DNA of 39,227 nucleotides, taken from IMG/VR virus record IMGVR_UViG_3300042541_001181, positions 1-39,227 of that record; one strand, given 5' to 3'. Of this stretch, positions 6,405 through 39,097 are shown piece by piece. The notes beneath the pieces were generated by a model. The model worked only from the letters and a program-made list of their open reading frames with translations. It was not told where the DNA came from and searched no databases. The position numbers and the translations under genes were made by a program. Numbering within the stretch: position 1 is the first letter of the stretch; each line of letters begins with the position of its first letter. Source of the stretch: a virus.

Positions 6405-7240
6405 TTTCCACCACCAGCGCCCATACCCATCGCACTACTATTACCAGAACTGCTGCCTGAACTAAGTACAGTCGGTGAACCAATAGAATTAGCATAATTG
6501 CTCATGTTTTGCCAAGGCATCATGCCGGGTGCAAATGATCCCATGCCTAGATTTTGCATGTTCTGCCCTTGCCCTAATGCACCAGTCTGTACACCTTGTT
6601 GAGCGCCCAACATGCCTGACATCATTTGCTGACGTGCAAGAGTTCCTTGGTCTGCCTGTTGAGCAATTCCTAGTTTATTCTGTAGGTCTTTATCAAACGT
6701 GTTGTAACCCGTATCTGCAAGATTCTTTTGCAGATTACTGTTAATGTCGTACATACCTTGTGATGTTGCGACACCATGCCTTGAACCACCCGACATACCA
6801 GAAGCCGCAGCCCTTGAGTCAAGGTTAGCCAGCATGTTATCGGTAGCACGATTGGCATCTGCCGTATAACCAGCCTTCATTGCATCCGCATAGTTGTTGC
6901 CATTACCGCCCATCATCTGACCATAGATGTTTTGCGTATTGGTAGGACTATTTAAAGACTGTTGAAGTGAATTAGACAAGGCATTAGCATTATCCATACC
7001 CTGATAAACACCACCATTTAACTGGCTCTGCCACTCCGGCATTGCCGACTGATTGGTTTGATTGATGTAATTTTGCACACCTGGCGTTTGTGCATTTATT
7101 GCATTACCAGTATTACCAAACGTTCCTGCTGCTGCTTTATACATTTTGGTAAGCGCATCAGACTGCCATTTTGGTATTCTCTGATTAAAATTACTTTGAT
7201 TATTTGCACTACTTTCACTATAATTTCCACCACCTGACAT
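6401..7240 (-). CDS. Asn/Gln/Gly-rich internal virion protein
   Basis: The 279-residue product is rich in Asn, Gln, Gly, Ala and Met, with Gly/Ser-rich termini. It opens with a motif common in such proteins (RIPKWQSDALTKMYKAA, about residues 22-38). No catalytic residues are seen. The middle (about 110-200) reads as helical (ATDNMLANLDSRAAASGMSGG). It has a good AGGAG ribosome site 8 bases before the ATG and starts the run of ejection-type genes after the acetyltransferase-like gene. The best call is an internal or ejected structural protein by context; the family name is not certain. Confidence 0.55.
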   Translation of the reverse strand: MSGGGNYSESSANNQSNFNQRIPKWQSDALTKMYKAAAGTFGNTGNAINAQTPGVQNYINQTNQSAMPEWQSQLNGGVYQGMDNANALSNSLQQSLNSPTNTQNIYGQMMGGNGNNYADAMKAGYTADANRATDNMLANLDSRAAASGMSGGSRHGVATSQGMYDINSNLQKNLADTGYNTFDKDLQNKLGIAQQADQGTLARQQMMSGMLGAQQGVQTGALGQGQNMQNLGMGSFAPGMMPWQNMSNYANSIGSPTVLSSGSSSGNSSAMGMGAGGGK

Positions 7241-30844: not shown

Positions 30845-31039
30845 TTATTTACCAAAAATGTCGGGGCGGATTTCTTTAGCAAGTTTTTGTATTGCTACTG
30901 TACGGATATATGAAGTTTCTTGATGCACACCACGCCTCAATCTATTAATCGTTGGCTGTGGAATATCGACAATAGCGCTGATCTCATTTTCAGTAAGACC
31001 ACTATCTCTAATTTCATTTAAGGCGTTTTGTATGTTCAT
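30845..31039 (-). CDS. cro: Cro-like repressor
   Basis: The 64-residue product has one helix-turn-helix, ENEISAIVDIPQPTINRLRRG, ending PDIFGK. Its recognition segment PQPTINRL is almost the same as PQPTIQRF in the divergent CI-like protein, so both should bind the same operators. I chose the ATG at 31039: the next ATG upstream (31051) lies in the -10 box. The predicted transcript begins within a base or two of this ATG. It is first in the leftward early operon. Confidence 0.8.
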   Translation of the reverse strand: MNIQNALNEIRDSGLTENEISAIVDIPQPTINRLRRGVHQETSYIRTVAIQKLAKEIRPDIFGK

Positions 31040-31046
31040 GGCCCCT

Positions 31047-31074
31047 ATCATATACGAAAGCGTATATTTGTCAA
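31047..31074 (-). promoter_or_regulatory. Early promoter for cro (PR-like)
   Basis: Minus-strand TTGACA (31074-31069), 16-base spacer, TATGAT (31052-31047). Operator O1 lies within the spacer and touches the -10 box. The expected start is about 31040, next to the cro ATG, giving an almost leaderless message. Confidence 0.75.
31052..31065. promoter_or_regulatory. Operator O1
   Basis: Perfect palindrome ATACG-AAAG-CGTAT arms, in the cro promoter spacer. One of four sites of the form AnACG-N4-CGTnT in the window. Its centre is 21 bp from O2, two helical turns. Confidence 0.75.
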
Positions 31075-31086
31075 ACGCAAACGTAT
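31073..31086. promoter_or_regulatory. Operator O2
   Basis: AAACG-CAAA-CGTAT, one arm position different from the perfect palindrome. It lies between the cro -35 box and the cI -35 box, so binding here should affect both promoters. It is paired with O1. Confidence 0.7.
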
Positions 31087-31121: not shown

Positions 31122-31622
31122 ATGACAATATTGCGTAAGAATTTGAAACAAGAAATGAATTCCAGAGGATGGAACGCCACCGTATTGTCTGAAAGATCGG
31201 GCGTACCACAGCCAACAATACAAAGATTTTTATCCGGAACGCATGGCGACCCAAGAAGCAGTACGATACAAAAGCTTGCTAAAGGCCTTGGTACTACAGA
31301 AGCAGCGCTTAGAGGATTTGAAGAAGCAGAAGCGCCTATTCCTCTTTATGAAAATATTGAAAAACTAAATGAAGAAAACAGAAAATTAATTGAGCAAATG
31401 GTTAGCACGCTAGTAAAAGCACAGCCAGAATTTGCACCTAAATCTAGTGAAAATAAATCAAATAAACCCTTGACACCCCGACCGGAAAATGTGGGGGGGG
31501 GGGGGGTGAACCAGCCTTATACACTGGCTTCGTACCGTAGGCGGCAGGGAGACGGGCCAGCAAGTAAAGAATTTATTGAAGCAGTACAGCACGATTGGGA
31601 AGATCACGAACGATCAAAATAA
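31122..31622 (+). CDS. cI: Short CI-like repressor without peptidase domain
   Basis: The 166-residue product has an N-terminal HTH domain (TILRKNLKQEMNSRGWNATVLSERSGVPQPTIQRFLSG...TIQKLAKGLG, 2-57). A helix with coiled-coil character follows (PLYENIEKLNEENRKLIEQMVSTLVKA, about 74-100). A polar linker contains GGGG coded by a 14-G tract (124-129), then a short C terminus. No S24/LexA-type Ser-Lys peptidase domain is present, so RecA-driven self-cleavage is not expected. Dimerisation may come from the helix. I chose the ATG at 31122 because the upstream frame overlaps cro and the operators. Confidence 0.82.
   Translation: MTILRKNLKQEMNSRGWNATVLSERSGVPQPTIQRFLSGTHGDPRSSTIQKLAKGLGTTEAALRGFEEAEAPIPLYENIEKLNEENRKLIEQMVSTLVKAQPEFAPKSSENKSNKPLTPRPENVGGGGVNQPYTLASYRRRQGDGPASKEFIEAVQHDWEDHERSK
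31493..31506 (+). repeat. 14-base poly-G tract inside cI
   Basis: A run of 14 G follows GT at codon 124. With 13 G the frame meets TGA at once (128 residues); with 15 G it stops after about 139 residues. Such tracts are prone to slippage during replication and also to sequencing error. Confidence 0.95.
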
Positions 31623-31735
31623 GCGGTTATGAGGATGGGCGTTGGGATCACACCTATTTGAATGTAATTAACACCCCGCAAAATGATGATAAGAAATAAG
31701 TTATACTGATAGTCAAAATATAAAGCGAGCTAGTA

Positions 31736-32419: not shown

Positions 32420-32494
32420 ATTGCCTATCGAAAAATAAATCCCCCCCCATTAATCAATCACTTGTGGCTTTAGGTGGTATTTTGTTTGAAAAAT

Positions 32495-32508
32495 ATACGA
32501 ATTCGTTT
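32495..32508. promoter_or_regulatory. Operator O3
   Basis: ATACG-AATT-CGTTT, overlapping the -35 box of the rightward promoter. Same pattern as O1, O2 and O4; centre 24 bp from O4. Confidence 0.7.
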
Positions 32509-32535
32509 GCATTAATTTATACGTTAGCGTATATT
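32507..32535 (+). promoter_or_regulatory. Repressor-controlled rightward promoter (PL-like)
   Basis: TTGCAT (32507-32512), 17-base spacer, TATATT (32530-32535), with O3 on the -35 side and O4 covering the -10 side. The start would be about 32542. It drives the structured leader RNA and the recombination-integration genes. Confidence 0.75.
32519..32532. promoter_or_regulatory. Operator O4
   Basis: Perfect arms ATACG-TTAG-CGTAT covering most of the -10 box of the rightward promoter. Repressor bound here would block RNA polymerase. Confidence 0.75.
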
Positions 32536-37795: not shown

Positions 37796-38078
37796 ATGGG
37801 TGACTGTCGATGCTTTTGAGTCACAAACAGGCATTAGGCGAGAGGAGGCACAACGAAAATGCCGAGCTAATGAGTGGCCTGAAGGAATTGCTTGGGTATA
37901 CTATTCTGATAAGATTAGGTTAATTAATCTGGAATGGTGGGATACAAAATGGCAAGAGATGGCACGGGCATCCGCAAAGCGACTGAAAACTCAATCCAAA
38001 TCGAGTTCACCTATCAATCTAAGCGATGCCGCGAACGCATCAAATGTGCGCCAACTGATGCAAACTTTAGAAAGATAG
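37788..38078 (+). CDS. xis: Excisionase
   Basis: The 96-residue product MAKWVTVDAFESQTGIRREEAQRKCRANEWPEGIAWVYYSDKIRLIN has the winged-helix start typical of phage excisionases. The T....F...TG....A....R...W..G..W...S...I..N pattern agrees. It is coded just before and overlapping the integrase by 130 bases. It should bend attR/attL DNA and direct excision. The C-terminal part is Ser/Asn/Ala-rich and polar. Confidence 0.82.
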   Translation: MAKWVTVDAFESQTGIRREEAQRKCRANEWPEGIAWVYYSDKIRLINLEWWDTKWQEMARASAKRLKTQSKSSSPINLSDAANASNVRQLMQTLER

Positions 38079-39097
38079 CGCTGTTTCGTGAAACCGTTAT
38101 CAATGAAATTGAGTCTGGTACATTTGATTATGCAAAAACATTTCCAGACTCAAAACACGCCACTAGATTTATTGAAAAAGTAGATAAGGTTTTATTGGTG
38201 TCTGATTGCCTAAATCGCTGGTTAGATGAAAAAGAAAAGCAGACTAAGGCCAGCAGTTACCAGACTTACAAAAAACGAGTCACAATGCTTCAAAAAGTAT
38301 TTGGCAACTATGCTGCTGAAGCAATAAGAAAAGTCGATGTCAAAGATTGGTGTAAAACACTGACTGTCTGCAATAAATCTATTCGTAGCTATACTCAGCC
38401 GCTAAGTTCTGCGATTCAGTTAGCCGTTGATGATGAATTGATTACGACAAACCCCTTAGCAGCATTTAAATACACCATTCTCGAAGAGCTAAAAGATGAT
38501 TTTGTTGATCCACTTGACAGATCGGAAGCAACAAAACTACTGGCGAGCCTTTCGGGATCGTATAAAAACTTGGTGCAGTTTGCCCTATGGACAGGATTGA
38601 GAACGAGTGAACTGATAGCCGTACAGTGGGGTGATGTTGATTTTAATCGTGGCGCTATTTTAATTAAACGGGCTAAAACACAAGCGTCTAAAAAAGACGA
38701 GGTAACAAAAACCAGAACTGGAAAACGGGAAGTAAAATTATTAAGCCCTGCTTTATCAGCATTATCAAGTCAAAAGGCTTTTACTTTTTTATCCGGTAAA
38801 CATATTTTTCTGAATGAAAAAACAGGAAAACCGTTCACTGGTGATACTCAAATAAGAAAAGCATGGAAACGGGCATTGTTGAGAGTTGGTATCCGCTACC
38901 GAAATCCTTACCAAACTAGACACACCTATGCGAGCTGGATGTTATCAGCCGGTGAACCTTTGGCTTGGATAAGTAAACAAATGGGTCACGCAAGCATCAC
39001 AACAACGACTAAACACTATGCAAGATTCTTGGATGACAGTCAGCCTGATGCAGGCAATAAAGCAGTAGATTTGTTCTCTGAAAAAAACATCCATTAA
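37949..39097 (+). CDS. int: Tyrosine-family integrase
   Basis: The 382-residue product has an N-terminal arm-binding domain of the DUF3596 type (GIRKATENSIQIEFTYQSKRCRERIKC, about 7-33) and a SAM-like core-binding domain (about 88-175). The catalytic domain has Arg218 (TGLRTSEL), Arg324 (PYQTRHTY), His347 (MGHASI) and Tyr357 (KHYARF). The first His of HxxR is replaced by Tyr (YQTR), as in other members of the group. The ATG at 37949 has GGTGGGA upstream. It overlaps xis. The 3' end runs into the att repeat, whose second copy lies at 1-21. Confidence 0.92.
   Translation: MARDGTGIRKATENSIQIEFTYQSKRCRERIKCAPTDANFRKIALFRETVINEIESGTFDYAKTFPDSKHATRFIEKVDKVLLVSDCLNRWLDEKEKQTKASSYQTYKKRVTMLQKVFGNYAAEAIRKVDVKDWCKTLTVCNKSIRSYTQPLSSAIQLAVDDELITTNPLAAFKYTILEELKDDFVDPLDRSEATKLLASLSGSYKNLVQFALWTGLRTSELIAVQWGDVDFNRGAILIKRAKTQASKKDEVTKTRTGKREVKLLSPALSALSSQKAFTFLSGKHIFLNEKTGKPFTGDTQIRKAWKRALLRVGIRYRNPYQTRHTYASWMLSAGEPLAWISKQMGHASITTTTKHYARFLDDSQPDAGNKAVDLFSEKNIH

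Follow-up and report, generated by a model that had tools for sequence, protein, structure and literature searches.

A poly-G tract in a phage immunity repressor as a probable frameshift switch of the repressor tail

The repressor gene and its surroundings

The stretch of DNA analyzed here (the window) is a complete IMG/VR record of 39,227 bases. On its plus strand, positions 31122–31622 encode a CI/Cro-type repressor of 166 amino acids, made up of an HTH domain (residues 8–61), a predicted helix (residues 79–99), a linker, a poly-glycine stretch and a tail. Residues 8–61 match Pfam HTH_3 (4.9e-9), and the protein is similar to PHROG repressors; both comparisons place its DNA-binding domain in the Cro/CI type. 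Foldseek matched the fold predicted by AlphaFold to 434 Cro and SinR. In the same model the linker is predicted to be disordered, and the linker and a tail helix (residues 149–164) have low confidence. A Pfam domain search of the repressor gave no match to the S24 peptidase domain. The protein is therefore not a RecA-cleavable CI of the lambda type, which bears out the initial annotation of a repressor without a peptidase domain.

A small divergent gene on the minus strand (30845–31051) encodes a Cro-like HTH protein (phrog_6831, 6e-12). The palindrome ATACGN4CGTAT, with at most one mismatch allowed, occurs seven times in the window versus 0.66 expected. Four of the seven copies form two pairs that bracket the repressor region. 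The first pair (31052–31086) consists of ATACGAAAGCGTAT at 31052–31065 and a copy with one mismatch at 31073–31086; the second (32495–32532) consists of a copy with one mismatch at 32495–32508 and ATACGTTAGCGTAT at 32519–32532. A promoter-like TTGACA/TATGAT of the cro-like gene overlaps the first pair. Putative operators, recognized by sequence only, and a divergent cro-like gene are thus both found beside the repressor gene. This palindrome also lies in front of the repressor in contigs L026, L033 and L025, all with the window-type HTH, and is absent from the corresponding place in L023 and L030, which carry another HTH; the candidate operators go with the HTH type. To the right of the repressor region lie recombination genes and an integrase gene (37934–39097, 6 kb from the repressor). 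We conclude that this is a lambda-like immunity region, and the 31122–31622 gene looks like its immunity repressor. A run of 8 C (32441–32448), flanked by a terminator-like site and the right operator pair, was also noted; it is not conserved, and L007 and L030 read CCCGTC there.

Within the repressor linker lies a tract of 14 G (31493–31506, plus strand), the longest homopolymer in the window, with runners-up of 8 nt. Matches to G8 number eight in the window, mostly overlapping, versus 0.24 expected from dinucleotide shuffles. GGG makes up 11% of the glycine codons of this phage, and the probability of four consecutive GGG through codon choice is ∼1.7e-4. Upstream of the tract is a linker segment shared with related repressors (31441–31492, from about –52 by blastn boundaries). 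It includes an invariant TTGACA block (31470–31475), then nine variable bases, then a conserved GAAAATGT directly 5' of the G-run (31485–31492). We considered TTGACA as the –35 element of a sense promoter and dropped the idea, since the –10 element would land in the G-tract. A phase-variable antisense promoter was likewise dropped, as inspection by eye gave weak hexamers only.

Downstream of the tract is a tail of type a (31507–31622, plus strand; supported by a frame test and multiple-of-three indels), which is read only if the number of G, n, equals 2 mod 3 and which opens with TGA in the –1 frame. The 14-G tract is in frame with it in the 166-residue protein, and the frame effects that the initial annotation claimed for one G fewer or more read off the sequence as claimed. 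With 13 G, the protein ends in ...ENVGGGG, followed by TGA (128 aa); with 15 G, it ends in ...GEPALYTGFVP, followed by a stop (139 aa). The truncated products retain the entire HTH domain and the predicted helix, and lose flexible linker and the low-confidence C-terminal segment.

Past the tail stop, a conserved peptide (ISGYEDGRWDHTYLNVINTPQNDDKK, 31619–31699, plus strand; a weak feature) is encoded in the –1 frame without a start codon; over 31616–31699 the conserved pattern reads GYxDGxWxHTYLNVIxxPQN. The sequence A-AAA-TAA adjoins this peptide, and relatives have A-AAG-TAA or A8-G. Judged from these sequences, it is faintly possible that the tail gains a –1 frameshift extension at A-AAA-TAA. 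In L008, a 98-bp unit rich in short C/G runs is repeated four times in tandem right behind the repressor tail (∼6503–6908).

A tract shared by divergent repressors

Related contigs were gathered by a relative search and by DNA scans with the motif TTGACA-N9-GAAAATGT-Gn-T[GA]AA. In 20 IMG/VR contigs, window included, for which both flanks are readable, the linker carries a tract of G8–G14 at a common position. Every true match to the motif either contains a poly-G tract or is cut off within it by the end of the contig. Near-variants of GAAAATGT occur in L007, L075, L174 and L176, and these four contigs together with L031 carry near-variants of the motif as a whole. TTGACA and GAAAATGTG (window 31470–31493) are nearly invariant in DNA across divergent repressors, the nine intervening bases vary freely, and the G-run itself hardly varies. 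None of the 20 tracts is interrupted by a synonymous change, despite the 11% share of GGG among glycine codons. A short, interrupted version, in frame, is present in L081; in L075, a T-to-G change lengthens the run and keeps the frame.

The repressors that share this tract comprise four or more divergent HTH classes: the window type, L023/L027/L030 (with Phage_CI_repr matches), L031/L067 and L174. Many of the HTH groups have 30–60% similarity or none detectable. Between repressors with different HTH domains, DNA similarity by blastn runs from ∼52 bases before the tract to about +200. The idea that the tract is a breakpoint for exchange of N-terminal modules was dropped, because similarity breaks at ∼–52 rather than at the tract. 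Behind the tract, the tails are of at least six kinds; they had no match above chance among phage or plasmid records. A tblastn search with protein P0001 found no relative in genome contigs. Just 3 of 18 records encode a homologue of the portal protein of the window; many of the 18 are fragments, although several of those lacking it are 36–42 kb long. The cassette is therefore not tied to one phage backbone.

Runs of at least 14 G followed by TGA are found in 83 stretches among 2.9 million IMG/VR contigs. Six of these, plus L134 (broken at a contig end), belong to the repressor-tract family. Several of the other contexts recur with different lengths beside similar flanks (L092/L144, L098/L140/L153, L093/L129, L103/L126 and L142/L143); in L098, L140 and L153, 15, 18 and 14 G, respectively, lie behind a long open frame. 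These recurring contexts are candidates for further phase-variable phage genes.

Tract length, reading frame and alternative repeats

Comparison of tract length across related phages, as the initial annotation had suggested, revealed variation from 8 to 14 G in assemblies, where G-tracts are error-prone. In contigs with both flanks, the lengths that keep the tail in frame are 14 (nine contigs), 11 (six) and 8 (one), and the out-of-frame lengths are 12, 10, 12 and 12. The tail is in frame in 16 of the 20 tracts (P = 2.5e-5 under equal frames; P = 1.4e-4 after removal of two near-duplicates). The lengths are therefore more than noise, and the tailed form is the most frequent. Close relatives also differ: the assembled tracts of L012 and L013 have 12 and 10 G, respectively, and the 350 nt on each side are identical. 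For the tails, indels are multiples of three and a synonymous excess is seen in the tail frame only, and tails of type b share 48–95% identity among phages. Judged by this frame and indel test and by protein conservation, the tails are coding and conserved.

In one relative, L180, an HTH repressor is joined to a homologue of tail b, and the G-tract is replaced by a linker encoded by (AGCC)10 and (CGAGC)8. In the assembled sequence the tail is read in frame, giving a protein of 233 aa. Neither repeat unit is a multiple of three, and gain or loss of one unit of either array would stop the protein at 157–169 aa, with loss of the tail. Contig L179, whose tail is nearly identical to that of L180, starts just past the repeat site. 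Although these alternative repeats are known from one relative only (L180, perhaps L179), they give us our best grounds for thinking that it is frameshifting, rather than poly-glycine or poly-G, that is selected. On sequence grounds, selection seems to favor a hypermutable site at which the frame can shift between the HTH and the tail.

Assemblies can fail at the tract. Contig 3300043409_001144, whose two ends are represented by L060 and L072, is broken there (nt 1–90 of L072 and the end of L060) and starts with poly-C/poly-G junk that the tract has seeded as an artefact of sequencing or assembly. The contigs of L022, L065/L134 and L164 end in or at the tract, and L022 has 15 G at its end versus 14 G in L008, which is 99.98% identical. 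Assemblies of such phages are thus broken or misread at a key regulatory gene. The junk and the extra G of L022 would fit a tract that is real with length differences that are sequencing or assembly artefacts. Such errors, however, would not prefer n = 2 mod 3; moreover, lengths of 8, 11 and 14 are found inside contigs with normal flanks, and the arrays of L180 are not homopolymers. We give this explanation little probability. Selection could instead act solely for a flexible Gly- or Ala/Pro-rich linker with an in-frame tail, and not for switching. The predicted disorder of the linker agrees with this, and an in-frame majority also fits a slippery linker under purifying selection. Yet the G-run is free of synonymous interruption in 20 contigs while the adjacent nine bases vary, two independent non-triplet repeat types occupy one site, four copies are out of frame, and an interrupted linker is found in L081 only. 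A merely tolerated linker therefore seems improbable to us.

Slippage might also occur during expression rather than replication, with RNA polymerase or the ribosome slipping on the G-run so that a single genotype yields tailed and tail-less protein in a constant ratio. Maintenance of a long pure G-run across the family agrees with this, and a second frameshift site possibly lies behind the tail. But near-identical phages differ in tract length, and AGCC/CGAGC arrays like those of L180 slip in DNA replication, whereas neither ribosome nor polymerase is known to slip on them, which leaves slippage in expression with little probability. The initial annotation had proposed that the repressor is phase-variable and that truncation inactivates it, causing induction. 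Its first part is supported by the conserved tract, the length variation and the repeat replacement; its second is not supported yet. If tail loss did inactivate the repressor, slippage would lead to spontaneous induction or to clear-plaque, virulent-like variants without RecA. Such a reading is in line with the support for phase variation, with a repressor that has no peptidase domain and with the in-frame form being the commonest. Against it, every product has a complete HTH and the predicted helix 79–99, and null alleles can arise anywhere in a gene, so that a conserved tail cassette after the functional part would be unneeded. The precedent of mycobacteriophage BPs is also the opposite: there, removal of 33 residues from the C-terminus leaves a stable, active repressor, and the long form is degraded (PMC4557955). 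We regard inactivation by tail loss as unlikely.

A probably switchable tail and its precedents

The tract is, we think, probably a contingency locus, that is, a selected frameshift switch of the repressor tail, common to a group of temperate phages. Replication slippage would alter the number of G; lengths with n = 2 mod 3 (8, 11, 14) would give a tailed repressor, and other lengths a tail-less one (immediate TGA/TAA) or a short-tailed one (few to ∼12 residues). Because no state loses the DNA-binding part, the switch would act on the tail's function rather than abolish repression. Because the tail is common to repressors with different DNA-binding domains, its function would be independent of the operator; it might contact a protease, antirepressor or partner required for induction.

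Simple-sequence-repeat (SSR) contingency loci with poly-G, AGCC and similar repeats are known from Campylobacter, Neisseria, Bordetella and others (PMC1891110, PMC5084427, PMC539331). Like these bacterial loci, the repressor genes have a long, pure homopolymer or non-triplet repeat within an ORF (G14 in the window; (AGCC)10 and (CGAGC)8 in L180), with length variation and predicted on/off frameshifting. The bacterial loci lie mostly in surface, restriction–modification and virulence genes, whereas the gene here encodes a probable phage immunity repressor in which the tail alone would be switched. NeuO is likewise encoded by a phase-variable gene on a phage, but it is cargo, an enzyme that modifies the capsule of the host, unlike the lysogeny switch considered here. 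In vir mutants of phage Mu, frameshifts close to the C-terminus of the repressor alter its sensitivity to ClpXP and the choice between lysis and lysogeny; these are selected mutations, unlike the built-in repeat described here. As in BPs, long and short repressor forms would differ at the C-terminus only, a difference that decides immunity in that phage, but in BPs the switch is thrown by site-specific integration inside the repressor gene and not by repeat slippage (PMC4557955). The CI-like repressors of Gifsy-type phages also lack autocleavage, and a single antirepressor there can target several repressors whose operators differ (PMC3121763). In contrast to the window repressor, their genes have no described repeat; in the window, the analysis identified no antirepressor. 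In the literature searched, covered in part and mostly as titles and abstracts, we found no SSR-phase-variable phage immunity repressor, and the portions covered for C. jejuni CJIE1 describe no repressor tract.

The BPs and Gifsy precedents lead us to a weak preference for one direction of the switch. Tailed phages would be inducible and tail-less variants harder to induce, giving a mixed lysogen population; by analogy, we tentatively favor this over the reverse, while holding it somewhat less probable than not. Since the HTH and the predicted helix remain in the OFF product, loss of the tail may stabilize the repressor or block its induction; by the BPs analogy, the shortened protein could equally well be stable and more active.

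More broadly, linker, slippery repeat and tail could constitute a dedicated, horizontally shuffled phase-variation cassette, fused to many HTH domains and recruiting differing repeats, that makes inducibility or immunity stochastic, heritable, reversible and SOS-independent; we see the chances of this as evenly balanced. When some phages enter lysogeny and others lyse, the usual explanation is noise in expression or the SOS response. A reversible frameshift switch built genetically into the immunity repressor would, if true, be a different mechanism, and it would make mixed lysogen populations heritable.
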